Assembly (NCBI RefSeq): GCF_013761175.1
Contig: NZ_JACDUR010000006.1
Location: forward strand, 372,001-436,000
From: Nonomuraea soli
Lineage (GTDB): Bacteria > Actinomycetota > Actinomycetes > Streptosporangiales > Streptosporangiaceae
Length of the DNA: 64,000 bases
Direction of reading: 5' to 3'
The position numbers were made by a program, and so were the translations under genes. The notes beneath the pieces are model-generated. The model was not told the origin of the DNA. It did no database searches and worked only from the letters and a program-made list of their open reading frames with translations. Below are positions 2,356 through 26,825 of the stretch, piece after piece; the stretch's first letter is position 1; the number at the start of each line of letters is the position of its first letter.

Positions 2356-3567
2356 TTGCACGGACCCCTCGGTGACATCGTCGTCCTTGATCTGTCTCGC
2401 GCGCTGGCGGGCCCGCACGCCGCCCAGATGCTGGGTGACCTGGGCGCCAGGGTGATCAAGGTGGAGCATCCCGACGGCGGGGACGAGTCACGGGGATGGG
2501 GACCGCCGTTCGCCGGACCATCGGGTGATATTTCGACCTATTTCCTGGCGGCCAATCGCAACAAGCAGTCGATCGCCGTCGACCTCAAGACCCCCGAGGG
2601 CAAGGAGCTCATCGAACGGCTCGTCCGGCGCAGCGACGTGCTGATCGAGAACTTCCGCACCGGCGTCCTCGACAGGCTCGGCTTCACCGTCGGCAGGCTC
2701 CACGAGCTCAACCCGCGCCTGGTGATCCTGTCGATCACCGGCTTCGGCCACGACGGCCCCGAGGGCGGCAGGCCCGGATACGACCAGATCGCCCAGGGCG
2801 AGGCCGGCCTCATGTCGCTGACCGGTCCGGGCCCCGGCGAGCCGTACCGCGTGGGCGCCTCCATCGCCGACCTGCTGGCCGGGATCCACGGCGCCTACGG
2901 CGTGGCCGCCGCGTTGTACGAACGCGAGCGCACCGGACACGGCACCGTCGTGCGCACCTCGCTGCTGGCCGCCGTGACCGGCGTGCACTCCTACCACGGC
3001 ACCGCCTGGACCGTCGGCGGCCAGGTGCCCCGCGCGGGCGGCAACCACCACGCCTCCATCGCTCCCTACGGCGCCTTCCGCTGCGCCGACGGCATGATCC
3101 AGATCGCCGTCGCCAACGAGAACCAGTGGCGCAAGGTGGCCGCCCTGCTCGACCTCGACAAGCCCGGCTACGCCACCAATCGCGAACGGTTCGCCCACCG
3201 CGACGAGCTGATCGCCGACATCGAGAAGGCCCTGGCCGCCCACGACCGCGCCCACTGGCTGGAGCGCCTGGCCGAGCTGGGCATCCCGGCCGGGGCCATC
3301 CGCTCGATCGACGAGGTCTACGCCTGGGAGCAGACCCGCTCCCAGGGCCTGCTCGTCGAGGTCGAGCACCCCGTGCTGGGGACGATCGAGCTGCCGGGTC
3401 CGCCGCTGCGCTTCGACGACCACCCCGGATTCCACCACACGGCGCCGCCGCAGCTCGGGGCCGACCGCGACGCCGTCCTCGACTGGCTGGCCAGGGCCGA
3501 GCAGGAGGCGGCATCGGGGGGCGAGCACAGATCCACGGCCGCGGACGAAACCGAGGGGGGCAGGTGA
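2356..3567 (+). CDS. Class III (CaiB/BaiF-type) acyl-CoA transferase
   Basis: A 403-residue protein of normal length for family III CoA-transferases, which move CoA between carboxylic acids through an aspartyl-CoA thioester. The N-terminal LDLSRALAGPHAAQMLGDLG and KVEHPDGGDESRGWG are family signatures. NRNKQSIAVDLK and VLIENFRTG are also conserved, and D172 in SIADLLAG matches the catalytic aspartate by its position about 30 residues after GYDQ. Translation starts at TTG 2356 with GTGGAGG eight bases upstream. The stop overlaps the GTG of the next gene (GTGA), so the carboxyltransferase is translationally coupled. Donor and acceptor acids cannot be told from sequence. Confidence 0.9.
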   Translation: MHGPLGDIVVLDLSRALAGPHAAQMLGDLGARVIKVEHPDGGDESRGWGPPFAGPSGDISTYFLAANRNKQSIAVDLKTPEGKELIERLVRRSDVLIENFRTGVLDRLGFTVGRLHELNPRLVILSITGFGHDGPEGGRPGYDQIAQGEAGLMSLTGPGPGEPYRVGASIADLLAGIHGAYGVAAALYERERTGHGTVVRTSLLAAVTGVHSYHGTAWTVGGQVPRAGGNHHASIAPYGAFRCADGMIQIAVANENQWRKVAALLDLDKPGYATNRERFAHRDELIADIEKALAAHDRAHWLERLAELGIPAGAIRSIDEVYAWEQTRSQGLLVEVEHPVLGTIELPGPPLRFDDHPGFHHTAPPQLGADRDAVLDWLARAEQEAASGGEHRSTAADETEGGR

Positions 3568-7857: not shown

Positions 7858-8649
7858 TTACGATCTGTTGACTCCCAGCACGCGGTGTTCCAGGCACGGC
7901 AGTGTTCTCCGGGCCGAAGCCGTCAGTTCCGGGTCTATCCGTACAAGCTGAACGCCGGCTCCACTGCCCAGATCCGCGCGGACCACGCCCAGCGGGTCGA
8001 CGAGCATGCTGCGCCCGATGCCGAAGCCGTCGGGCGACTCCTGCGGGTTGGGTGCCTGCCCGACCGCGGCGGTCCACATGGTGTTCTCCAGGGCGCGGGC
8101 ACGCACGAGGGTGATCCAGTGGTCCTCCTTCAGCACGCCCGACCCCCAGGCCGCGATCACCGCGAACAGGTCGGCGCCCTGGTCGACCAGGGCGCGGGTG
8201 AGCTCGGGGAAGCGGATGTCGTAGCAGGTGACCAGGCCGACGCGCAGCCCGGCCAGCTCGACGACGGTCGGCCGGTCGCCCGGGGCGACGAGCGACGACT
8301 CCGAGGCGCCGAAGGAGTCGAACAGGTGGATCTTGCGGTAGGCGGCCTGCAGCGCGCCGTCGGCGTCGAGGGCGACGGCGGTGTTGTGCACGCGGTCGTC
8401 GCCCGGCTCGAACACCCCGGCGATGACGGCGATGCCGTGCTCGCGCGCCGCCTGGGCCAGGCCGGTGACGAAGGGGCCGTCGAGGGGCTCGGCCAGCTCC
8501 GTGATGCGCGTGCCGTACCTGGTGAGGGTGGCCTCGGGGAAGATCGCCAGGTCGGCGCCGCGCGCGTGGGCGAGCGCCTCCTGAGCGCGCTTGAGGTTGA
8601 CCGAGGGATCAGGGGAGACCGGGATCTGGCACAGGGCGATGGTCGTCAC
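7858..8649 (-). CDS. Carbon-nitrogen hydrolase (nitrilase superfamily amidase)
   Basis: 263 residues, the usual length for single-domain nitrilase-superfamily amidases, which hydrolyse C-N bonds in amides through a Glu-Lys-Cys triad. All three residues are visible: E39 in AIFPEA, K106 in YRKIHLF and C142 in VTCYDIRFPEL. The YDIRFPEL context is that of omega-amidase/deaminated-glutathione amidase-type members rather than true nitrilases; the exact substrate is open. GTG 8649 is the start. The upstream DUF418 gene ends inside this gene (41-bp overlap), so both probably lie on one transcript. Confidence 0.88.
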   Translation of the reverse strand: MTTIALCQIPVSPDPSVNLKRAQEALAHARGADLAIFPEATLTRYGTRITELAEPLDGPFVTGLAQAAREHGIAVIAGVFEPGDDRVHNTAVALDADGALQAAYRKIHLFDSFGASESSLVAPGDRPTVVELAGLRVGLVTCYDIRFPELTRALVDQGADLFAVIAAWGSGVLKEDHWITLVRARALENTMWTAAVGQAPNPQESPDGFGIGRSMLVDPLGVVRADLGSGAGVQLVRIDPELTASARRTLPCLEHRVLGVNRS

Positions 8650-9481: not shown

Positions 9482-11187
9482 ATCGCCCAGACGAACCACC
9501 ATATGAGAAATCCGGCGCCGACGACGGCCGAGGTGATCTGCGGCCATCGCCGCCTGAAGCGCAGCGACAGCGCCGACAGCAGCACCGACAGGATCGCCAG
9601 CCACGTGACCGGCCACACCGCCGCCGGCACGCCGAGCGCCAGCACGACCTCGTTCTCCTCCAGCTGGCCGTAGACGATCTGGAGGGTGAGCCCGGCGAAG
9701 GCCAGGCCGCTGAGCCCGGCGAAGGCGGTCAGCGCCCAGCCGTGCCCGCCGCCCGCCACCAGCTGCAGCACCGCGATCAGGGCGAACAGCGCCAGCGGCG
9801 CGGCCAGCCACGGCTCGCTCATCAGCCGGTACGGCGCGGCCGTCAGGTGCACGTCGCCGGCCTCGACCCGCTCGTAGGGCGCGGGGCACGGCGCCGCCGC
9901 GGGTGCGGCCGGGTCGGCGACGAAGGCGGCGATGGTGCGCTGCCCGCACACGCTGGTGAGGAAGACACCGTGGCCGACGCCGGGGAACTCCACGAAGCGG
10001 GCGGCGGGCAACCGCCCGGCGGCCGGCCTGGCCGTACGGCTGGGCGTGGTCGGGTCGAGCGTCCCGGAGACGACCAGCACCGGAGCCTCGGTGCTCGCTT
10101 CGGCGGGTTTGCTCGCCTTGAGCTTCCACTCCTTGCACGTGCGCCTGTCCTCCAGCGCGGTGAACAGGCGCGGCTCGGCGGCGAACTCGTTGAACGGCAC
10201 CTCGTCCTGGCACTGCACGGCGTGGTAGAGGCCCCAGTCGTAGCTCGTCAGCGCCGGCGCCGCCCGGTCGAGGATCGGCTGGAGCACCTCGCGACGTCCG
10301 TGCTCCAGAGCGTCGATCAGGGCGGGCAGCGCCGCGGCCACCCGGGCGTCGCGGATCGCCTCGCCCAGGATGGTCATCAGATCGCCCCCGCTCAGCGTGA
10401 GGGTGAGCCTGCCCTCGGTCAGCGGGTCGGGCGCCTCGACGAAGAGCGGCGCGGCGTCGAGGCGGGCGGCCAGCCGCTCGAAGCGCTCGCGCACGCCCAG
10501 CGCGGCCATGACGTCGAGGAGGTTGCGCTCGGCGTCGTCGTACCAGGCGACACTTTCGGGCAGGAAGGAGTCGAGCACGACGGCGCGGGTGCCCTCCGGG
10601 TCCAGGGCGGCGGCCCGCAGCATCGAGCGGGTGGAGTAGCTGACGCCGAACAGGTTCCACTGCGGGTAGCCCAGCGCCTGGCGCAGGTCCACGACGTCGG
10701 CGGCGATCTCCTCGGTGGTGTAGCCGCGCAGGTCCACGCCCTCCTCGCGCAGCCGTCCCAGGCAGGTTTCCGGAGGAGGCTCGCCGGAGCCGGAAGGCGG
10801 GATCAGGTGGTCGAGGAGACGCGTGACCGCTTCCGGGCAGCCGAGGCTGGGGCGGGAGAAACGGCTGCCGCGCTGCTCCAGGGCGATCACGTCGCGGTCG
10901 GGGAACATCTGGCGCAGCGTGCCGATGAGCTGCGATGTCGCGGCGCCGGGCCCGCCCGCGGTGAAGACCACCGGGTCGGACTTGCGGCGGATCGAGGGGG
11001 AGGAGAAGCGGGCGAAGCCCACCTTGATCGTCTTGCCGGGTCTGTCGCGGCGTTCCGGCACCACCAGGAAGCCGCAACGGGTGCCGCTCGGCACCGCGAC
11101 GGGGCAGCCGCCCTGCCATTCGATCTCGGGCGGGGCCGCGGGCGCGGATAACAGGAACGACAGCGCGAGCACAAGCCGGGAGATCAC
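9478..11187 (-). CDS. Alpha/beta hydrolase with TAP-like C-terminus and membrane tail
   Basis: 569 residues. An N-terminal signal/anchor (ISRLVLALSFLLSAPAAPP) is followed by a tripeptidyl-aminopeptidase-type alpha/beta hydrolase: oxyanion loop VVFTAGGPGAA, EQRGSRFS, nucleophile S183 in GVSYST, the acid in SGTLDPTTPS and His in FPGVGHGVF, then the Cys-containing TAP-like tail. Unlike classical secreted SlpD/E- or TAP-type proteases it carries about four hydrophobic helices after residue 460 (for example WLAAPLALFALIAVLQLVAG), so it is probably membrane-held with its active site outside. It heads a three-gene overlapping run. Likely peptidase or esterase; substrate unknown. Confidence 0.85.
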   Translation of the reverse strand: MISRLVLALSFLLSAPAAPPEIEWQGGCPVAVPSGTRCGFLVVPERRDRPGKTIKVGFARFSSPSIRRKSDPVVFTAGGPGAATSQLIGTLRQMFPDRDVIALEQRGSRFSRPSLGCPEAVTRLLDHLIPPSGSGEPPPETCLGRLREEGVDLRGYTTEEIAADVVDLRQALGYPQWNLFGVSYSTRSMLRAAALDPEGTRAVVLDSFLPESVAWYDDAERNLLDVMAALGVRERFERLAARLDAAPLFVEAPDPLTEGRLTLTLSGGDLMTILGEAIRDARVAAALPALIDALEHGRREVLQPILDRAAPALTSYDWGLYHAVQCQDEVPFNEFAAEPRLFTALEDRRTCKEWKLKASKPAEASTEAPVLVVSGTLDPTTPSRTARPAAGRLPAARFVEFPGVGHGVFLTSVCGQRTIAAFVADPAAPAAAPCPAPYERVEAGDVHLTAAPYRLMSEPWLAAPLALFALIAVLQLVAGGGHGWALTAFAGLSGLAFAGLTLQIVYGQLEENEVVLALGVPAAVWPVTWLAILSVLLSALSLRFRRRWPQITSAVVGAGFLIWWFVWAM

Positions 11188-11212: not shown

Positions 11213-12397
11213 GTGAGTACTGATAGCGCCACGCCGAACCCCCTCGTCGCCCGGATGCGCGGCTTCGGGACCACGATCTTCGCCGAGATGAGCGCGCTGG
11301 CCGTCCAGACGGGTGCGATCAACCTGGGCCAGGGCTTCCCCGACACCGACGGGCCCGCGTCGATGCTGGCCCGCGCGGCCGAGGCGATCGCCTCGGGCGC
11401 CAACCAGTACCCTCCGGGGCCCGGCGTCCCCGAGCTGCGCCAGGCCGTCTCCGACCACCGACGCGACCACTACGGCCTGGCCTACGACCCCGGCGGCGAG
11501 ATCCTCGTCACCGTCGGCGCCACCGAGGCCATCGCCGCGAGCGTGCTGGCGCTGTGCGAGCCGGGCGACGAGGTGATCGCGTTCGAGCCGTACTACGACT
11601 CCTACGCCGCCTCCATCGCGCTGGCCGGCGCGAGGCTGGTGGCGGTCACCCTGCGGCCGGTCGAGGGGCGTTTCACCTTCGACCCGGCGGAGCTGCGCGC
11701 CGCGATCACCCCGCGCACCCGCGCCATCCTGGTCAACTCGCCGCACAATCCCACGGGCACGGTCTTCACCCGCGACGAGCTCACCGAGATCGCGGGGCTG
11801 TGCCAGGAGTTCGGGCTGACCGCGATCACCGACGAGGTCTACGAGCACCTGACCTTCGACGGAGCCGAGCACATCCCGCTGGCGACCCTGCCCGGCATGC
11901 GCGAGCGCACCGTCATGATCTCCTCGGCTGGCAAGACCTTCTCCGTCACCGGCTGGAAGACCGGCTGGATCTGCGCGCCCGCGCCGCTGGTGCGCGCGGT
12001 CCAGACGGTCAAGCAGTTCCTCACCTTCACCTCCAGCGCCCCCTGGCAGCTGGCCGTCGCCCACGGCCTGCGCCACGAGCTCGACTGGGTCGCGGGCCTG
12101 CGCGCCGAACTGGAGGGCAAGCGCGACCGCCTCATGGAGGGCCTGCGCGCCGCCGGATTCGAGGTGCTCAAGCCGCTGGGCACCTACTTCGTGCAGACCG
12201 ACATCAGGCCCCTCGGCCACACCGACGGCCTGAAGCTGACCCGCGACCTGCCCGCGCTGGCCGGCGTGGTCGCCATCCCGACCCAGGTCTTCTACGACCA
12301 CCCCGAGCGCGGCAGCCACTTCGTGCGTTTCGCCTTCTGCAAGAAGGACGAGGTGATCGACGAGGCGGTGGCCAGGCTCAAGGTCCTGGGCCGCTGA
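11213..12397 (+). CDS. PLP-dependent class I aminotransferase (DapC/KAT-like)
   Basis: 394 residues, fold type I. INLGQGFPDTDGP and NQYPPGPGVPELRQA are substrate/cofactor-loop signatures, VNSPHNPTGTVF and ITDEVYEHL bind PLP, and K241 in SSAGKTFSVTGWKTGW is the Schiff-base lysine. The pattern matches actinobacterial enzymes annotated as N-succinyldiaminopimelate aminotransferase (mycobacterial Rv0858c type) and also kynurenine/methionine aminotransferases, so lysine biosynthesis is possible but unproven. GTG 11213 has no Shine-Dalgarno and lies six bases after TATTCT, consistent with a leaderless mRNA. The gene is divergent from the hydrolase, 25 bp away. Confidence 0.88.
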   Translation: MSTDSATPNPLVARMRGFGTTIFAEMSALAVQTGAINLGQGFPDTDGPASMLARAAEAIASGANQYPPGPGVPELRQAVSDHRRDHYGLAYDPGGEILVTVGATEAIAASVLALCEPGDEVIAFEPYYDSYAASIALAGARLVAVTLRPVEGRFTFDPAELRAAITPRTRAILVNSPHNPTGTVFTRDELTEIAGLCQEFGLTAITDEVYEHLTFDGAEHIPLATLPGMRERTVMISSAGKTFSVTGWKTGWICAPAPLVRAVQTVKQFLTFTSSAPWQLAVAHGLRHELDWVAGLRAELEGKRDRLMEGLRAAGFEVLKPLGTYFVQTDIRPLGHTDGLKLTRDLPALAGVVAIPTQVFYDHPERGSHFVRFAFCKKDEVIDEAVARLKVLGR

Positions 12398-18549: not shown

Positions 18550-19731
18550 TCACGCGGTGGCGGGGATGGAGGCGGGGGTGCCGCGCAGGAGTTCTTCGAC
18601 GACGAGGGTGGCCGCGCCCATGGCGACCGCGTCGGCTCCCAGGCGGCCCAGCACGATGGGCACGGGGGGGAAGGAGCTCATCGTGTTGGCGGCGGCCGAG
18701 GCCTGCACGCGGGCGAGCTGCGCGCCGCCGAGCATGAGTCCCGCCCAGCCGCCGATGACCACGCGTTCGGGGTTGAGCAGGTGGATCACGTTGGACAACC
18801 CTATGCCGAGCAGGTCGGCGCTCTCCTCCACCACCGGCGAGCCCTCGCGGATCAGGCGGGCCAGGGTCGGCTCCTGGTCGGCGGCGTCGGCGGTGATCCC
18901 GGCCCTGTCGATGATCGACTCAGCGCCGACGTAGGCCTCCAGGCAGCCCTGGCCGCCGCAACGGCAGGGGCGGCCGCCCGCGACGATCTTCAGATGGCCG
19001 AACTCCCCGGCCGCGCGGCCCGCGCCGCGGTAGATGGAGCCGTCGGTGACGAGCGTGCATCCCACGCCCGACCCTATGAAGACGACCACGGCGTCGCCGG
19101 CGTCGCGGGCGGAGCCGAACCACAGCTCGGCCTGGCCCATCGTCTTGGCGCCGTTGTCGACGAACAGGGGCAGCGAGGTGCCGCGGCGCAGCAGGGCGCC
19201 GAAGGGCACCGAGTCCCAGCCGAAGGTGGTGGCGTGCACGAGGGCGTCGGGGCCGCCCTCGACGATGCCGGGCACGCCGACGCCGATGCCGAGCACCTTG
19301 TCGTACGGCACGGCGGCGTCGGCCACCACGCTGTCGACGCCCATGAGCAGGTGGCGCGCCACCAGTTCGGGGTCGTGCCTGGCGGTGTGCAACGCGTAGT
19401 AGGCGCTGGCCCGCACGGTCATCGCCAGGTCGAACAGCTCCACCCTGACGTGGGTCTCGCCGACGTCGACCCCGACCACGTAGCCGTAGTCGGGGTTGAC
19501 CCGCAGCAGCACGCGTGGGCGCCCGCCGTCGGAGTCGACCTGGCCGGACTCCACGATCATGTTCTCCGCGAGCAGGTCGGCGGTCAGGGTGCTGACCGAT
19601 CCGGCGCTCAGCCCGGTCGCGGCGCTCAGGGCGTGGCGGTTGGTCTCGCCGGCGAAGTACAGCTCCCTCAGCAGCATCGCGCGGTTGCCGCGGCGCAGGT
19701 CTCGGACGGTCTTACGTTCAGACCTGCTCAT
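18550..19731 (-). CDS. ROK-family transcriptional repressor of the sugar locus
   Basis: 393 residues. A winged helix-turn-helix near the N-terminus (NRHALSAATGLSAGSVSTLT) is followed by a ROK sugar-kinase-like domain. It retains the phosphate-loop-like VGVDVGETHVRVELFD and the zinc motif CRCGGQGCLEAY that shapes the sugar pocket. ROK repressors of this type release DNA when they bind a sugar or sugar phosphate. It is divergent from the binding-protein gene across 117 bp and precedes the DUF2264 gene, so it most likely controls both arms of the locus. ATG 19731 has AAAGG upstream. Confidence 0.9.
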   Translation of the reverse strand: MSRSERKTVRDLRRGNRAMLLRELYFAGETNRHALSAATGLSAGSVSTLTADLLAENMIVESGQVDSDGGRPRVLLRVNPDYGYVVGVDVGETHVRVELFDLAMTVRASAYYALHTARHDPELVARHLLMGVDSVVADAAVPYDKVLGIGVGVPGIVEGGPDALVHATTFGWDSVPFGALLRRGTSLPLFVDNGAKTMGQAELWFGSARDAGDAVVVFIGSGVGCTLVTDGSIYRGAGRAAGEFGHLKIVAGGRPCRCGGQGCLEAYVGAESIIDRAGITADAADQEPTLARLIREGSPVVEESADLLGIGLSNVIHLLNPERVVIGGWAGLMLGGAQLARVQASAAANTMSSFPPVPIVLGRLGADAVAMGAATLVVEELLRGTPASIPATA

Positions 19732-19848: not shown

Positions 19849-21066
19849 ATGAGCCGAGCAATCGCGGCGGCGGCGGTTCTGGCCTTCGCATTAACCGCCT
19901 GCGGCAGCGGCGACAGCGGCGGCGGTGGGCAGGCCGCGGAGAGCAGGACGTTGACCTACTGGATGTACCAGGACCGCACCCCGCAGGCGGGCGAGGTCGT
20001 GGAGAAGATCCGCAAGGACTTCGAGAAGGCCAACCCCGGGGTCACCGTCAAGATCGTCAAGATCCCCAAGGACGACTTCAACACCAAGCTGGGCAGCGCC
20101 ATCTCCAGCAAGACCGGGCCCGACGTGAGCACCTTGGACCAGCCGCTGGTCTCCAAGTACGCCAAGGACGGCACGATCGTGGAGCTGCCGGCCGGAACGG
20201 TGTCCGAGGGCACCTATTTCAAGGGCGCCTACGACACCAACCTGGGCACCGACGGCAAGTACTACGGCCTGCCGCTCGACCAGACCGGCGTGGCGCTGTT
20301 CTACAACAAGAAGCTGGTGCCGACCCCGCCCACGACCTGGGACGAGATGAAGGCCGCCAGCGAGAAGGTCCACGCCGCCGACCCGAACGTCGCGGGCATG
20401 GTCGTGCCCAAGGGCGACGGCTACGGCGGATGGATGTTCCCCGGCATCGTCGCGGGCAACGGCCTGGAGATGGCCGACGTCGCGAGCAAGAAGATCCTGT
20501 TCGACCAGCCGCAGGCCGTCGAGGCGCTGCAGTTGTGGGTGGACCTGCTCAAGTCCTCGCCGCGCAAGATCACCGACTCCGACCAGCCGTTCCAGAACGG
20601 CCTGGCGGGCATGATGATCTCCGGTCCCTGGGACGTGCCCACCATCCGCGAGCAGTTCCCCGAGCTCGACTTCAGCGTCGCGCCGCTGCCGTACAAGACC
20701 GAGCCCGCCGGCAACATCGGCGGCGAGAACGCGGTCGTCTACAAGACGAGCCCGAACCAGGACCTGGCCTGGAAGTGGCTGACGTTCATCACCAACGAGA
20801 CCAACAACGGACCGCTGGCCGACGCGCTCGGCGGCTTCCCCGTCCACACCAAGGCCACGGCCGTCGGCTCGGGACCCGAGCACGAGGCCTTCCTGGCCCA
20901 GCTGAAGGTGGCGCACGCGCGCCCCGCCGTACCCGAGTGGATCCAGATCAACGACGAGATCATCGCCCCGGCGATCGAGTCGGCGCTGCTGGGCAAGATG
21001 ACCGCGCAGGAGGCGTTGACCGACGCGGCCAACAAGACCCGCTCGCTGCTCGGGTGGAACAGCTGA
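19849..21066 (+). CDS. Sugar-binding lipoprotein of a CUT1 ABC importer
   Basis: 405 residues. The signal peptide ends in a lipobox (FALTACGSG), so the mature protein is lipid-anchored outside the membrane. The body is a family-1 extracellular solute-binding protein (TYWMYQDRTPQAGEVV, VSTLDQPLVSKYA, GLPLDQTGVALFYNKKLVPTPPTTW, MISGPWDV, NIGGENAVVYK), typical of oligosaccharide systems. It starts an operon with two permeases and a GH35-type enzyme, so the ligand is probably a galactoside or related oligosaccharide. No ATPase is encoded, as is usual in actinomycetes, where a shared MsiK-type ATPase serves several importers. Confidence 0.92.
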   Translation: MSRAIAAAAVLAFALTACGSGDSGGGGQAAESRTLTYWMYQDRTPQAGEVVEKIRKDFEKANPGVTVKIVKIPKDDFNTKLGSAISSKTGPDVSTLDQPLVSKYAKDGTIVELPAGTVSEGTYFKGAYDTNLGTDGKYYGLPLDQTGVALFYNKKLVPTPPTTWDEMKAASEKVHAADPNVAGMVVPKGDGYGGWMFPGIVAGNGLEMADVASKKILFDQPQAVEALQLWVDLLKSSPRKITDSDQPFQNGLAGMMISGPWDVPTIREQFPELDFSVAPLPYKTEPAGNIGGENAVVYKTSPNQDLAWKWLTFITNETNNGPLADALGGFPVHTKATAVGSGPEHEAFLAQLKVAHARPAVPEWIQINDEIIAPAIESALLGKMTAQEALTDAANKTRSLLGWNS

Positions 21067-21067
21067 C

Positions 21068-22012
21068 ATGAGCAGCACTCCGGTCGTGGCCGGGCGGCGT
21101 CGCCGCCGCTCGGCCCCTGGACGGCGCAGGGACCACGTGATCGCGTGGCTGCTCATCGCCCCCGCGCTGGTCTACTTCGTGGTCTTCCTGCTGTATCCCG
21201 CCCTGTCGGCCCTCTACTACAGCTTCACCGACTGGAACCTGCGCACCACCGCGAGCTGGGTCGGGTTCCAGAACTACGTCGACCTGTTCACCGACGAGGT
21301 GAAGTATCCGCACTTCTGGAAGTCCGTCCAGGTCACGCTGCAGTACACGATCATCGCCGTGCCCCTCACCCTGGGTACCGCGCTGATCCAGGCGCTGCTC
21401 ATCAATGCCATCAAGCGCGGCTCCAACCTCTTCCGCCTGCTGCTGTTCCTGCCCGTGGTCACCGCCGAGGCGGCCGTGGGCGCGATCTGGCGCTGGCTCT
21501 ACGACCCGCGCTACGGCCTGATCAACAGCGTGCTGGAAGTGTTCGGCATCCCCGGGCAGAACTGGCTCAACACTCCCGAGCTGGTCATCCCGGCCCTGGC
21601 CTTCATCTCGGCCTGGCAGTGCGGCATCGCCATGATCATCTTCCTGGCGGGCCTCAAGGGCATCCCCGGCTCGATCCTGGAGGCGGCCACCATCGACGGG
21701 GCCAACGCCTTCCAGCGTTTCCGCAAGGTCGTCATGCCGATGCTCCGGCCGACCACCTTCTACCTGCTGGTCACCGGCGTCATCGCGGCCCTGCAGGTCT
21801 TCGGGCTGGTCTACGTGATCTTCAGTGGCGCGGGACGCAGCGTCACCGGCGGCCCCGAGCAGTCGGGCCTGGCCTACGTGCTCCACCTGTACCTGTTCGC
21901 CTTCCGCTACGACGCGATGGGCGCGGCCTGCGCGATGTCGTTCATCCTGCTGGTCTTCATCATGATCATCACTGCGGTGCAGTTCAAGTTCGTCAAGCAG
22001 GAGGCGGCGTGA
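21068..22012 (+). CDS. Sugar ABC transporter permease (MalF/UgpA type)
   Basis: 314 residues, begins one base after the binding-protein stop. It has six predicted helices after a basic N-terminus (RRDHVIAWLLIAPALVYFV) and the ABC-coupling EAA loop (GSILEAATIDGANAFQRF, then KVVMPMLRP). It forms the membrane channel with the next permease. Its stop overlaps the GTG of that gene (GTGA), so both subunits are made together. Confidence 0.93.
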   Translation: MSSTPVVAGRRRRRSAPGRRRDHVIAWLLIAPALVYFVVFLLYPALSALYYSFTDWNLRTTASWVGFQNYVDLFTDEVKYPHFWKSVQVTLQYTIIAVPLTLGTALIQALLINAIKRGSNLFRLLLFLPVVTAEAAVGAIWRWLYDPRYGLINSVLEVFGIPGQNWLNTPELVIPALAFISAWQCGIAMIIFLAGLKGIPGSILEAATIDGANAFQRFRKVVMPMLRPTTFYLLVTGVIAALQVFGLVYVIFSGAGRSVTGGPEQSGLAYVLHLYLFAFRYDAMGAACAMSFILLVFIMIITAVQFKFVKQEAA

Positions 22013-22842
22013 GACGGCTGTCGATCTACGGCGCGCTGATCATCCTGACGCTGATCTCCGTGGTGCCGTTCCTGTGGATGCTGGCCACCTCCTTCAAGCA
22101 CGGCTCCGACATCTACACCAAGGTCCCGCAGCTGCTGCCGCTGGACAAGGAGACCGGCGAGTGGGCGGGCACGCTCGAGAACTACTCCTACGTCATGGAG
22201 ATCGGCGGGCTCGGCCAGGCCTTCCTCAACAGCGTCTGGATCACGCTCGTGCTCGTCCCGGCCAAACTGCTGGTCGACGCGCTGGCCGCCTACGCCTTCG
22301 CGCGCATCCCCTTCCCCGGCCGCGACAAGATCTTCGTGCTGCTGCTGGGCGGCATGATGGTGCCGACCATCACGCTGCTCATCCCGCGCATCCACGTCAC
22401 CCAGGCGCTGGGCATGTTCGACTCCCCGTGGGGCCTGATCGTCCCGAACATCGCCTCGGTGATCGACATCTTCCTGCTGCGGCAGTTCTTCCTCTCCATT
22501 CCCAAGGAGCTGGAGGAGGCGGCGCTGATCGACGGCGGCGGGCGCATGCAGATCTTCTGGCGCGTCATCCTGCCGCTGTCGAAGCCGGTGCTGGCCGTCG
22601 TGACGATCACCAGCTTCCTGTTCCACTGGAACGACCTCGTCTGGCCCCTCGTGGTGCTCAACGACCCGGAGCTCTACACGCTCCCGCTGGCGTTGCAGCA
22701 GCTCGTGGCCTCACCCGACGGCGGACGGGCCTACTACATCATGGCGGGCGCGACGCTGGCGGTCATCCCCGTGATCGTCGTCCTGCTGATCTTCCAGCGG
22801 CGAATCCTGGCGGGAATCGCCTTCACCGGTCTCAAGGCCTAA
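22009..22842 (+). CDS. Sugar ABC transporter permease (MalG/UgpE type)
   Basis: 277 residues from GTG 22009, overlapping the previous stop. Typical MalG features are an N-terminal helix (LIILTLISVVPFLWMLATSF), six membrane helices and the EAA loop KELEEAALIDGGGRMQIFWR followed by VILPLSKP. It ends IAFTGLKA, the common C-terminus of this family. It partners with the upstream permease; the missing ATPase must be supplied in trans. The GH35-type gene follows after 13 bp. Confidence 0.93.
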   Translation: MRRLSIYGALIILTLISVVPFLWMLATSFKHGSDIYTKVPQLLPLDKETGEWAGTLENYSYVMEIGGLGQAFLNSVWITLVLVPAKLLVDALAAYAFARIPFPGRDKIFVLLLGGMMVPTITLLIPRIHVTQALGMFDSPWGLIVPNIASVIDIFLLRQFFLSIPKELEEAALIDGGGRMQIFWRVILPLSKPVLAVVTITSFLFHWNDLVWPLVVLNDPELYTLPLALQQLVASPDGGRAYYIMAGATLAVIPVIVVLLIFQRRILAGIAFTGLKA

Positions 22843-22855
22843 GGAGTCTGCAAGC

Positions 22856-24748
22856 GTGTCCATCGAGGTACGGGACGGGGTCACCGTCATCGAGGGCGAA
22901 GCCAGGGTGCTCGTCAGCGCCGACTATCCCTACTACCGGGACCGGCCGGAGGTCTGGGCCGACCGGCTGACGGCGCTGCGCGACGTGCTGGGGATCGACG
23001 TGATCACCAGCTACATCCCGTGGCGCCACCACCAGCCGCTCGCCGACAGCCCGCCGGACTTCACCGGGCACACCCACCCGTCGCGCAACGTCGTCGGCTT
23101 CCTGGAGCTGTGCCACCGGCTGGGGCTGAAGGTCGTGGCCAAGCCGGGTCCGTTCATCCACGCCGAGGTCGACTACGGAGGGCTGCCCGACTGGGTCTGC
23201 CCCGACGCCGACCCGGCCATCGAGCCGCTGCTGGACGTCGAGGGCAAGGCCTCGCGCTGGTTCTACGGCTCGGGACCCGGCGGCAAGCCGCTGCCCGCGC
23301 CGCTGGCCGAGCCGTTCGCCGGCCTGGTCCAGGAGTGGCTGTCGGCGGTCGGCTCCAAGGTGCTGGACGCCGCGACCTGGCCCGAGGGCCCGGTGATCCT
23401 CATGCAGATCGCCAACGAGGGCATCTACACCAACGGCGCGCGCCCGGTGACCGCCTACGACTTCAGCCCCTCTTCGGTGGAGTTCTTCCGCGCCACCACC
23501 GGCCGCCACGAGCCGCCGCGCTCGGCGGGCGAGGACCCGATGCTGCTGGCCGACTGGGGCCGCTACCACGCGGTCTACCTGTCGACCGTCTACCGGCGTT
23601 GGGCCGAGGCGGTCGGCTGCCGGGTGCCCACGGTGATCAACCTCAACCCGCCGACCGTCGAGGACCTCGACGACTGGCTGGTGCGCGTCGACCCGTCGTC
23701 GTGGGGCGGCATCGCCTACGGCTTCACCAACTGGATGGGCGTGGTCTCCTCCGAGGCCGACGCGCACTTCCGCTACGTCACGGCCGCCAAACTCGCGCCG
23801 GGGCCGAACCTGGAGGAGAACTGGGGCTTCTCCCAGCTCTACGACCCGGCCTACGGCGACGCCACCACCTCCTTCCACCAGTCGCTGCTGGCGCTGGCGG
23901 CGGGGGCGACCGGCTTCAACGTCTACACCGGCGTCTCCACCTCCGGCTGGCCGCGGGAACTCGACTCGCAGACCGCCTCGCCGTACCCGGACTGCTCGCC
24001 GATCGCCGCGGACGGCACCGCCACCGTCAAGGCGCCTGCCGTACGGGCCCTGGCGGACTTCTTCGCCCGCCACGGCGTGGAGTTCCTGGAGAGCACGCCC
24101 GTCGTCGGCGGCAGCTTCGGGCTCTACCGTCCCTGGTCGGGCATCGCGGCCTGGGACGTGATGGACAACGGCGAGGCGCTGCGTGCCTTCCACGCCCGCA
24201 TGCGGGCTGCCGGGCACGACTACCGCATCGCCGACCTGGCCACCGACGTCGCCGGGCACGAGCGGATCACCATCCCCGGCGGCCGGTTCATGCACCGCTC
24301 GGTCCAGGAGGCCCTGGCCCGCTCCGGCGCGGCGATCGAGGTGCTCGGGCAGGTGCCGGTGCTCGACGAGAACCTCGAACCGTGCACGGTGCTCGCCGAC
24401 GCGCTCGGCACGCAGGTCCCCGCGCTGCCGGAGCCGCCCGCCCGCGTGGTCGCCGGCTCGGCCGACGTCTACGTGCGCAGGCACCCCGATCGCGACGTCG
24501 CCTACCTGACCGTCCTGGTCCAGGACGACAACGCCGGAACCGTCCGCGTGCAGTACGGCACGCGCTCCCTGGAGGTCGTCGCCGCCAGGGGCGGAGCCGC
24601 GGTGATCAGGATCGTCGGCGGCCGGCTCGACGATCTGCTGGTCAAGGGCGTCAACGGCTACCTCGGCTCGAGCGTGGCCGCTTCCGTCTCGCTCGACGGC
24701 CAGACCGTGGGACTGGAGGAGCCGGGAGATCTGTACCGGCTTGCCTAA
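22856..24748 (+). CDS. GH35-type beta-galactosidase-like glycoside hydrolase
   Basis: 630 residues from GTG 22856 (AAGGAG nine bases upstream). The N-terminal TIM barrel carries the family signatures SADYPYYRDRPEVWADRL, SYIPWRHHQP and VVAKPGPFIHAE. It also has E188 in MQIANEG (acid/base, matching IQxENE) and the probable nucleophile E320/E321 in GPNLEENWGF. The C-terminal part (about 390-630) is beta-rich. There is no signal peptide, so it acts inside the cell on what the transporter imports. Beta-galactosidase is the family's main activity; variations around both glutamates mean another beta-glycoside is possible. Last gene of the sugar operon. Confidence 0.85.
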   Translation: MSIEVRDGVTVIEGEARVLVSADYPYYRDRPEVWADRLTALRDVLGIDVITSYIPWRHHQPLADSPPDFTGHTHPSRNVVGFLELCHRLGLKVVAKPGPFIHAEVDYGGLPDWVCPDADPAIEPLLDVEGKASRWFYGSGPGGKPLPAPLAEPFAGLVQEWLSAVGSKVLDAATWPEGPVILMQIANEGIYTNGARPVTAYDFSPSSVEFFRATTGRHEPPRSAGEDPMLLADWGRYHAVYLSTVYRRWAEAVGCRVPTVINLNPPTVEDLDDWLVRVDPSSWGGIAYGFTNWMGVVSSEADAHFRYVTAAKLAPGPNLEENWGFSQLYDPAYGDATTSFHQSLLALAAGATGFNVYTGVSTSGWPRELDSQTASPYPDCSPIAADGTATVKAPAVRALADFFARHGVEFLESTPVVGGSFGLYRPWSGIAAWDVMDNGEALRAFHARMRAAGHDYRIADLATDVAGHERITIPGGRFMHRSVQEALARSGAAIEVLGQVPVLDENLEPCTVLADALGTQVPALPEPPARVVAGSADVYVRRHPDRDVAYLTVLVQDDNAGTVRVQYGTRSLEVVAARGGAAVIRIVGGRLDDLLVKGVNGYLGSSVAASVSLDGQTVGLEEPGDLYRLA

Positions 24749-24762
24749 CAAGGGCGGTTTAG

Positions 24763-24779
24763 TGGGCAGAGATTGCCCA
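24763..24779. promoter_or_regulatory. Inverted repeat upstream of the carbamate kinase/amidohydrolase operon
   Basis: TGGGCA-GAGAT-TGCCCA has perfect 6-bp arms, centred about 44 bases before the expected transcription start at 24815. This is a position suited to an activator or an upstream repressor site. No regulator gene is adjacent. Confidence 0.4.
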
Positions 24780-24801
24780 TGAACACCACGTGAGGGCTCG
24801 C

Positions 24802-24807
24802 TAGCGT
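24802..24807 (+). promoter_or_regulatory. -10 box (TAGCGT) for the carbamate kinase operon
   Basis: TAGCGT is followed by seven bases and then GTG 24815, with no Shine-Dalgarno. This places the transcription start at the start codon, giving a leaderless mRNA. Confidence 0.5.
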
Positions 24808-24814
24808 CGTCACC

Positions 24815-25738
24815 GTGGGTGAACGGATCCTCATCGCGCTCGGCGGCAACGCCATGACCGGGCCCGACGGCACAGCCTCTCCGCGCGACCAGCAGGCCGC
24901 CGTGGAGCGGGCCATGCGCCACGTGCGCGCGCTCGTCGCCGCCGGGCACCAGGTGATCCTCACCCACGGCAACGGCCCCCAGGTGGGCAACCTGCTGCTG
25001 AAGAACCAGCTGGCCGCCTCCGTGGTGCCCCCGGTGCCGCTCGACTGGTGCGGCGCCCAGACACAGGCGACCATCGGCACGCTCATCCTCAACAGCCTCC
25101 AGGGCCGGAGCGCCGCCGTGGTCACCCGCACGCTGGTCGACGCGGGCGACCCCGCCTTCCTCGACCCGGTCAAGCCGATCGGGCGCTACTTCCCCGAGAC
25201 CGAGGCGCGCATCTTCGAGAAGCTCGGGCAGAGCTGGCGCTCCTTCGAGCGCGGCTGGCGCCGCGTCGTGGCCTCGCCCGAGCCGCTGGAGATCCTCGAC
25301 GCGCAGGCCGTCAAGGTGCTCATGGACGCCGGGTACACCGTGGTCGCCGCGGGAGGCGGGGGAGTGCCCGTCGTACGGCTGGACGACGGCTCCCTGGCGG
25401 GGATCGAGGCCGTCATCGACAAGGACCTGGCGGCGGCGTTGCTGGCCCGCGCCGTGCACGCCTCCGTGCTGATCATCGCCACCGACGTCCCGAACGCCGT
25501 CGTGGGCTTCGGCGGTCCCGATCCTCGGCCGCTCGGCCCCATCTCCGTGTCCGAGCTGCGTGTCCTGCACGCCGCCGGGCACTTCGCAGGGGGCAGCATG
25601 GGTCCCAAGGTGGAGGCGGCGCTGCGCTTCGTGGGGGCGGGCGGTCGCCTGGCTGTCATCACCGGGCTGGAGTCGCTGGGCGGCGCCCTGACCGGAACCA
25701 TCGGGACGAGAGTGGAGAGAGATGCCGGATCCGATTGA
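24815..25738 (+). CDS. arcC: Carbamate kinase
   Basis: 307 residues, the usual size. The amino-acid-kinase fold shows [10 protein letters not shown] at the N-terminus and [14 protein letters not shown]. It also has the carbamate-kinase signatures [16 protein letters not shown] and [31 protein letters not shown] and a C-terminal [13 protein letters not shown]. It interconverts carbamoyl phosphate + ADP with ATP + carbamate (which falls to CO2 and NH3). There is no arginine deiminase or ornithine carbamoyltransferase beside it; instead its last 17 bases overlap a ring-opening amidohydrolase. This points to a role in breaking down ureido/cyclic amide compounds rather than arginine. Confidence 0.92.
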
Positions 25739-26825
25739 AGTGCGCAAAGTCATGATCGAGAGCGTGACCGACGCCTCCGGGCTGTCCAAGCTCATCGAGG
25801 AGGGCGTGATCGAGGCGCACCGGGTGCTCGCCGTCATCGGCAAGACCGAGGGCAACGGAGGCGTCAACGACTACACCCGCATCCTGGCCGACACCGCCTT
25901 CCGCGACGTCCTGGCCCGCCACGGCCACCCGTCGCCGTCGTCGGTGCCCCTGGTCTGGTCGGGCGGCACCGACGGCGTGCTCAGCCCGCACGCCACGATC
26001 TTCGCCACCGCCGACCCGTCCACGGTCACCCCGTCGGACGAGCCGCGCCTGTCGGTCGGGGTCGCGATGAGCGACATCATCCTGCCCGAGGACATCGGCA
26101 GGCCCGCCATGGTGGAGAAGGTCGCCGCCGGGGTGCGCGAGGCCATGAAGGTCGCCGGCATCACCGACCCGGCCGACGTGCACTACGTGCAGACCAAGAC
26201 GCCCCTGCTGACCCTGGCCACCATCGAGGACGCCCGCAGCCGCGGCAAGGAGACCGTCATCGAGGACACCGGCCCCTCGATGGACCTGTCGAACGCCACC
26301 ACCGCGCTCGGCATCGCCGTGGCGCTCGGCGAGATCGAGATGCCCACCGCCGGGCAGATCTTCCGCGACCTGTCGCTGTACTCCTCGGTCGCCTCCTGCT
26401 CCTCCGGCGTCGAACTCGACCGCGCGCAGATCGTCGTCGTCGGCAACGTGCGCGGCATCGGCGGCCGTTACCGCATCGGGCACTCGGTCATGAAGGACGC
26501 GCTCGACGCCGACGGCATCTGGGAGGCCATCCGCTCGGCCGGGCTCGACCTGCCCGAGCGCCCGCACCACAGCGACCTCGGCGACCGCCTCGTCAACGTC
26601 TTCCTCAAGTGCGAGGCCGACCCGTCGGGCCGGGTGCGCGCCCGGCGCAACATCATGCTCGACGACTCCGACGTGCACTGGCACCGGCAGATCAAGGCCG
26701 CCGTCGGCGGCGTCACCGCCTCCGTCACCGGCGATCCGGCCGTCTTCGTCTCGGTCGCCGCCGTCCACCAGGGACCCTCCGGTGGCGGCCCGGTGGCGGC
26801 CATCGTGGACCTGTCGACGGACTGA
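25722..26825 (+). CDS. Ring-opening amidohydrolase (cyanuric acid hydrolase/barbiturase family)
   Basis: 367 residues, the full three-repeat length. The family's three Ser/Lys pairs are visible: K41 in IGKTEGNGG with S80 in WSGGTDG; K159 in VQTKTPLL with S227/S228 in CSSGVEL; K325 in [10 protein letters not shown] with S344 in [14 protein letters not shown]. These enzymes hydrolyse cyclic imides: cyanuric acid to carboxybiuret, or barbiturate to ureidomalonate. I cannot tell which from the motifs alone. GGAGAGAG precedes ATG 25722, which lies inside the carbamate kinase gene, so the two are coupled. No biuret or allophanate hydrolase gene is nearby. Confidence 0.9.

Follow-up and report, generated by a model that had tools for sequence, protein, structure and literature searches.

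In the 10.1 Mb genome of the actinomycete Nonomuraea soli, a carbamate kinase gene overlaps a gene for a ring-opening amidohydrolase within the 64,000-nucleotide stretch studied here (the window; C6:372001-436000, C6 being contig NZ_JACDUR010000006.1; positions without a contig name count from the first letter of the window). We propose that the two genes provide ring opening and ATP recovery within a scattered regulon for oxidative pyrimidine degradation, which would lead from uracil to ATP through an enzyme of the AllF/AllG/AllH (AllFGH) type, and we put the probability of this reading at roughly two in three. The case is built on sequence, that is, on gene identities, gene order, co-occurrence, specificity residues and a conserved promoter. 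We infer every reaction from these, above all that AllFGH would accept ureidomalonate and that a molybdenum hydroxylase would act on uracil.

In the proposed route, uracil would be imported by a RutG-like NCS2 permease and oxidised to barbiturate by a molybdenum hydroxylase of the CoxM/CoxS/CoxL type. Barbiturase (25722-26825) would convert barbiturate to ureidomalonate, which an AllF/AllG/AllH-type enzyme would cleave with phosphate to malonamate and carbamoyl phosphate, in the way that E. coli AllFGH cleaves oxalurate. The kinase (24815-25738) would use carbamoyl phosphate and ADP to form ATP, CO2 and ammonia, and malonamate would pass to malonate and on to malonyl-CoA. AllFGH and the kinase would stand in place of a urea-forming ureidomalonase. 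Recovery of ATP from a cyclic ureide had been suggested in a first-pass annotation of this DNA and is the best reading of the pair.

Barbiturase and its overlapping carbamate kinase

The amidohydrolase (25722-26825, plus strand, 367 amino acids, ATG start) matched PF09663 with 487 bits (cut-off 25) and TIGR02714 with 534 bits (cut-off 153). Its best solved relative is the barbiturase (Bar; EC 3.5.2.1) of structure 5hwe, presumably from Rhodococcus erythropolis, which scored 580 bits and is identical at 273 of 365 residues (75%); the next was a cyanuric acid hydrolase with 307 bits. The cyanuric acid hydrolases AtzD, TrzD and that of Moorella (PDB 4bvq, 5t13 and 6bum) belong to the same Toblerone family, PF09663, and share its serine and lysine motif positions, but AtzD has 44-45% identity to the window enzyme and unlike residues at all five specificity positions. 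These five positions separate Bar from AtzD, and PMC3758960 gives the Bar letters as 195 N, 321 H, 325 K, 345 V and 346 S/A in AtzD numbering, which agrees with our alignment once shifted by one position. The window enzyme has N, H, K, V and A, the same five residues as 5hwe (Bar-type 5/5, AtzD-type 0/5). Because the numbering of some other residues in that paper misfits the alignment, we judged the Ser-Lys pairs by motif. Three lysine and three serine motif positions, read by eye from the alignments, are the same as in 5hwe and AtzD, consistent with the first-pass view that all three pairs are intact.

A phylogeny against AtzD, TrzD and Bar, which the same annotation had suggested, placed the window enzyme with 5hwe in a 33-row tree, with AtzD, TrzD and the Moorella hydrolase apart at 100/100 support. 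The original label had named cyanuric acid hydrolase and barbiturase side by side; the five residues and the tree uphold the second name and speak against the first, although the NCBIfam model NF052395 would assign it. Judged by these features, the PF09663 enzyme is a barbiturase. The Bar product, as given in PMC3758960, is 3-oxo-3-ureidopropionate (ureidomalonate), which is neither carbamate nor carbamoyl phosphate. The idea that the hydrolase itself ends in one of these two compounds contradicts this product, and we dropped it.

The kinase gene (24815-25738, plus strand, 307 amino acids, GTG start; PF00696) encodes the predicted ATP-forming step. Its product scored 282 bits with the carbamate kinase model NF009007, above the cut-off of 266, and 316 bits with the arcC equivalog TIGR00746, below a cut-off of 358 that is a curation threshold and no defining trait; its closest solved structures, 1e19, 3kzf and 1b7b, are all carbamate kinases. 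Both open reading frames were found where they had first been annotated, with the reported 17-bp overlap at 25722-25738. A GGAGAG resembling a ribosome-binding site (25714-25719, plus strand) lies within the end of the kinase gene and precedes the ATG at 25722, which agrees with the start of 5hwe in the alignment.

Upstream of the kinase lies a perfect inverted repeat, TGGGCA-GAGAT-TGCCCA (TGGGCA-N5-TGCCCA; 24763-24779, plus strand), a predicted operator and the sole exact match of the extended pattern within the window. It is one of 49 kinase-upstream repeat sites found at the consensus threshold. A -10-like TAGCGT (24802-24807, plus strand) ends 7 bp 5' of the GTG. Because the repeat, the TAGNNT element and the start codon hold their positions in most relatives that have the kinase, the leaderless promoter with its inverted repeat, already proposed from the letters of the window, is well supported as a prediction; a scan for the sigma-70 consensus detected no promoter upstream of the kinase.

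To place the pair among its relatives, we used 296 genomes sampled from the class (114 genera) and a set of 80 named relatives; G-numbers label the genomes searched. PF09663 was present in 67 of the sampled genomes; among these, G023 has a fragment, the gene of G209 is split, and G031, G093, G100 and G122 are divergent rows. Carbamate kinase occurred in 107 of the 296 genomes and in 59 of the 67, and in an adjacency survey of the kind suggested at first it stood directly upstream of barbiturase in 54 of the 67, across many families. A kinase match stood in the same place in 49 of the 80 named relatives, a count that takes in a degraded remnant (L046) and two rows with an unresolved kinase end (L057 and L076). 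Adjacency at these frequencies is no product of chance. The two frames touch or overlap in 22 of 50 rows, the window included. The coupling of the two genes is thus borne out by their overlapping frames and by a pairing that recurs across many families, and the possibility that the pairing is unique to this strain gave way to a widespread distribution. The L046 remnant, from Sinosporangium album, consists of kinase fragments in two frames upstream of barbiturase (about 9620-10014) and looks like a decaying copy.

Carbamate kinase is also the last, ATP-forming step of the arginine deiminase pathway. A search for PF02274 (arginine deiminase) gave no match in the window or on its contig, as the first-pass annotation had held for the sequence it saw, but the genome has two PF02274 genes, on C1 and C2, so the absence applies to the window and not to the genome. 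The PF02274 gene at C1:986800-987936 has another carbamate kinase of its own about 1 kb away (C1:984858-985754). Since the PF02274 genes sit on C1 and C2, we rejected the pair as a remnant of that pathway. A third, divergent carbamate kinase match (C1:1418937-1419812) lies near an amino-acid-permease-like gene.

AllFGH, the molybdenum hydroxylase and a possibly shared repeat

Because the barbiturase product is ureidomalonate, a phosphorolytic carbamoyltransferase is needed to reach the kinase. E. coli AllFGH uses phosphate to split oxalurate into oxamate and carbamoyl phosphate, the latter being a substrate of carbamate kinase (PMC11326118). Ureidomalonate is an acylurea one CH2 longer than oxalurate, and we therefore searched for AllG (PF06545). 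Genes for AllG (C6:301950-303383), AllF (C6:303326-304672; best solved relative E. coli FdrA, 3dmy) and AllH (C6:304722-305606) form an operon-like run on the same contig, outside the window and 95 kb from the pair, with a divergent gene for a PucR regulator (C6:305716-307305). PF06545 and PF11392 were matched above cut-off, and the FdrA model NF004760 reached 364 bits, below its cut-off of 433.

AllG and barbiturase occur together. Among the 296 genomes, 67 had PF09663, 72 had AllG and 61 had both (Fisher p=2e-44); by genus the numbers were 35, 37 and 29 of 114 (p=3e-14), both p-values being uncorrected for shared ancestry. AllG lay 18-44 kb from barbiturase in 30 of the 38 pairs on the same contig. 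With the four divergent PF09663 rows removed, AllG was found in 61 of 63 genomes, group 5 CoxL (CoxL5) in 62 and carbamate kinase in 59. A PF09663 search of 14 control genomes, E. coli included, gave no match.

The same contig also carries an NCS2 permease with RutG as its best match, CoxL5, CoxG, HyuA and HyuB; the permease and the molybdenum hydroxylase lie some 10-16 kb from AllFGH. The permease scored 371 bits with the pyrimidine transporter RutG, 257 with uracil permease and 157 with xanthine permease, all below cut-off. CoxL5, the large subunit of the hydroxylase (C6:318795-321134, outside the window), matched NF040766 ('CODH_aero_grp5') with 1464 bits. This family was present in 63 of the 296 genomes, of which 62 also had PF09663, and PF09663, AllG and CoxL5 occurred together in 60; by genus, CoxL5 was found in 31 of 114, 30 shared with PF09663, and all three markers in 28. 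The nearest solved relative of CoxL5 is quinoline 2-oxidoreductase. An AYxCSFR loop is the mark of the CO-oxidising CoxL, and the CoxL5 of G382, the sole member aligned, has PYRGAGRP at the site of the CSFR loop in solved CO dehydrogenase. It is possible that the NF040766 family, named as an aerobic CO dehydrogenase, is misnamed. HyuA and HyuB (C6:342979-346810) follow the hydroxylase region.

Some genomes hold these genes close together. G045 and G257 each carry barbiturase, kinase, HyuAB, CoxL5, permease, PucR and AllHFG within 20-24 kb. In G310, all parts lie inside 29 kb: HyuA, HyuB, CaiB, carboxyltransferase, carbamate kinase and barbiturase form a one-strand run, followed 6.5 kb further on by CoxG, CoxL5, CoxM, permease and PucR and then by divergent AllH, AllF, AllG and an amidase on the other strand. 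This amidase after AllG and another in the G045 cluster are candidates for a malonamate amidase; no clustered candidate was found in the N. soli genome. A CaiB-like gene in the window (2356-3567, plus strand; coenzyme A-transferase family III), whose NCBIfam matches are all below cut-off, clusters with CaiB genes that lie close to barbiturase in G045, G257 and G102; it is an uncertain member that may serve a later step, the activation of malonate.

To look for shared regulation, we trained a position model on the 49 kinase promoters only and applied it upstream of the cluster genes, with 327 genes as controls. Sites scoring above 10 were found for 6 of 13 permease genes (p=8e-7), 2 of 14 HyuA genes (p=3e-5), 2 of 10 CoxM genes (p=0.05) and 1 of the 327 controls. 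AllH (0/6, p=0.003) and PucR (0/15, p=0.008) gave weak signals with no site above 10. These p-values are optimistic because some sampled clusters are closely related. A shared operator is supported by these predicted sites for the permease and HyuA promoters of the sampled clusters, is borderline for CoxM and is weak for AllH and PucR. The motif upstream of the N. soli permease scored -0.3, and the link is therefore not established in this genome; we do not claim one operator for the whole regulon there.

Related routes share parts of this arrangement. The oxamate branch of E. coli allantoin metabolism, AllFGH-AllK, has the same AllF, AllG and AllH families, a catabolic carbamate kinase and the cleavage of an acylurea (PMC11326118 and PMC9843812), whereas the ureide expected in N. 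soli would be ureidomalonate from barbiturate, and the genome had no match to PF02615, the broad family of AllD, the enzyme that supplies oxalurate. In comammox bacteria and ammonia-oxidising archaea, allFGHK stands beside biuret and triuret genes, which similarly places AllFGH and carbamate kinase with ureide-hydrolysing genes; there, however, the partners are biuH and trtA, no PF09663 enzyme was found in those genomes (atzD is reported absent), and oxalurate is the assumed substrate (PMC12625717). The ureidoglycine carbamoyltransferase and carbamate kinase of Rubrobacter xylanophilus likewise couple phosphorolytic carbamoyl transfer from a ureide to the kinase, but through an enzyme resembling aspartate carbamoyltransferase in purine breakdown and not through AllFGH with barbiturase (PMC4016543).

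A proposed amidase ending and a plasmid parallel

A search with the letters of 5hwe in 201 genomes of one family, which we take to be relatives of Rhodococcus, gave 18 matches, ten of them at 90-100% identity. Neither AllG nor carbamate kinase was found in nine of these ten genomes; G310 is the exception and has both. Directly after barbiturase, eight of the ten carry an amidase (76-100% identity), and these eight have neither AllG nor carbamate kinase. When 49 genomes were searched for this amidase at that identity, it was found in 8 of 12 AllG-negative and in 0 of 37 AllG-positive genomes, where the best match had 49%. G382 encodes a barbiturase with 100% identity to 5hwe; its amidase (L150:1025-2515; PRK07486 group) begins about 120 bp after barbiturase and is a candidate ureidomalonase. 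The cluster of G382 also holds a uracil phosphoribosyltransferase beside barbiturase, an NCS2 permease, CoxM, CoxS, CoxL5, HyuA, HyuB, a carboxyltransferase, PucR and a CaiB-like gene; visual inspection alone added a CoxG-like gene and a further NCS2 gene. Our gene caller was a simple one that missed genes in genomes of lower GC content, and for two loci we listed the open reading frames again manually.

Ureidomalonase makes malonate and urea. The oxidative pyrimidine pathway is described as running through Bar and ureidomalonase (PMC3758960), and R. erythropolis JCM 3132 uses pyrimidines as a carbon source (PMC3961730). G382 shares CoxM/S/L5, the NCS2 permease, PucR, HyuAB and the CaiB-like gene with N. 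soli, but differs in having the amidase after barbiturase and neither AllG nor carbamate kinase, where N. soli would use AllFGH and the kinase. Most simply read, the amidase would be the ureidomalonase, replaced elsewhere by AllFGH and the kinase.

An independent parallel is found in enterobacteria. On the Klebsiella aerogenes plasmid NZ_CP103667.1 (L174, 75905-84834), genes for a hypothetical protein, a ring-opening amidohydrolase, an NCS2 symporter, AllH, AllF (FdrA), AllG and carbamate kinase lie on one strand, and at least 80% of this run is present in 47 of 72,556 plasmid records, from several genera. The plasmid hydrolase has the AtzD letters at 5/5 positions, and the solved structures closest to it are those of cyanuric acid hydrolases. 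A ring-opening hydrolase with AllFGH and carbamate kinase thus occurs in two settings with unlike hydrolase types, which backs the general idea of the first-pass annotation.

Competing explanations and biological meaning

Several observations weigh against the proposed route. The co-occurrence and motif statistics ignore shared ancestry, the motif is missing from many clusters, and the N. soli permease shows just its core, GGCA-N5-TGCC. The kinase beside barbiturase is kept in only 2 of 24 Nonomuraea-titled relatives, so that either another kinase serves there or ATP recovery is optional, and, on our reading, the kinases next to barbiturase score below the TIGR00746 cut-off, with the single exception of G068. 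G206 and G014 (72% complete) have barbiturase and CoxL5 without AllG, and G347, which has barbiturase without AllG, carbamate kinase or a close amidase, fits neither type. HyuA was found in 45 of 49 genomes searched and has no role in the scheme. The AllFGH genes lie far from the pair, AllFGH has been proven for oxalurate only (PMC11326118), and PF02615 is somewhat commoner in three-marker genomes than in the others (16/60 versus 34/236, p=0.03).

The last two points would suit a different reading, in which AllFGH and carbamate kinase handle oxalurate at the end of allantoin (purine) breakdown, as in E. coli, and barbiturase is just another nitrogen-scavenging gene, as would the naming of PucR for purine catabolism and the 11 of 72 AllG genomes that lack PF09663. 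In the three-marker genomes that have PF02615, AllFGH may act on oxalurate. We nevertheless consider this reading unlikely. The N. soli genome is without a PF02615 match, as are 44 of the 60 three-marker genomes at E<=1e-20, the N. soli permease scores higher with RutG than with the uracil and xanthine permeases, barbiturase, AllG and CoxL5 track one another across genomes, and identity to the N. soli AllG is 57-78% in 14 genomes with PF09663 as opposed to 48 and 53% in two without.

Less probable still is a cyanuric acid hydrolase, with carboxybiuret or biuret as the source of carbamoyl phosphate for the kinase. The enzyme does score above the cut-off of NF052395 (469 versus 360 bits), and the plasmid operon does combine a hydrolase of the cyanuric acid type with AllHFG and carbamate kinase, but the specificity residues, the identities and the tree all point to Bar, as do the uracil-related genes around the Bar of G382. 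We give about as little credence to a kinase that has nothing to do with barbiturate, supplies or consumes carbamoyl phosphate in general metabolism and owes its position to history. Such a kinase would be consistent with its absence from this place in most Nonomuraea-titled relatives and with the two further carbamate kinase matches in the genome, but not readily with an adjacency that spans many families, reading frames that touch or overlap in many relatives, and the joint absence of kinase and AllG from nine of the ten genomes closest to 5hwe.

Other genes of the window were considered apart from the pyrimidine route. Upstream of the kinase, genes for an ATP-binding cassette (ABC) sugar importer and a GH35-like enzyme (19849-24748) and for a ROK-type regulator (18550-19731) stand between a conserved aminotransferase gene and the kinase. 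This block is not shared with the loci of the 80 relatives and clusters alone, and we rejected a role for it. A nitrilase-family amidase (7858-8649, minus strand) and the aminotransferase (11213-12397, plus strand), a possible omega-amidase pair, hold a conserved position close to barbiturase in many of the 80 relatives, and the site continues to aroB-type genes.

A literature search, with subscription papers mostly outside it, found no paper with both 'barbiturase' and 'carbamate kinase'. The matches for 'uracil dehydrogenase' included none on this subject by title and the start of the abstract, and the pairing was in no title among the matches listed for ring-opening amidohydrolase, cyanuric acid, carbamate kinase, fdrA, DUF1116 and DUF2877. 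To our knowledge, uracil/thymine dehydrogenase and ureidomalonase are without an assigned gene, and AllFGH has, as far as we have seen, been characterised only in E. coli allantoin metabolism.

Taken more broadly, we lean towards a so far undescribed, ATP-yielding uracil route of actinomycetes in which 'CO dehydrogenase group 5' would be uracil dehydrogenase, AllFGH-type enzymes would form a wider acylurea phosphorylase family acting here on ureidomalonate, and relatives of Rhodococcus would have swapped this ending for a urea-forming amidase, ureidomalonase. If this is true, it would provide gene candidates for uracil/thymine dehydrogenase and for ureidomalonase, and a pathway thought to end in urea would instead recover one ATP per uracil. 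AllFGH would then be a general means of cashing in acylureas, and the misnaming of a CO dehydrogenase family would affect genome-based estimates of CO use by soil actinomycetes.

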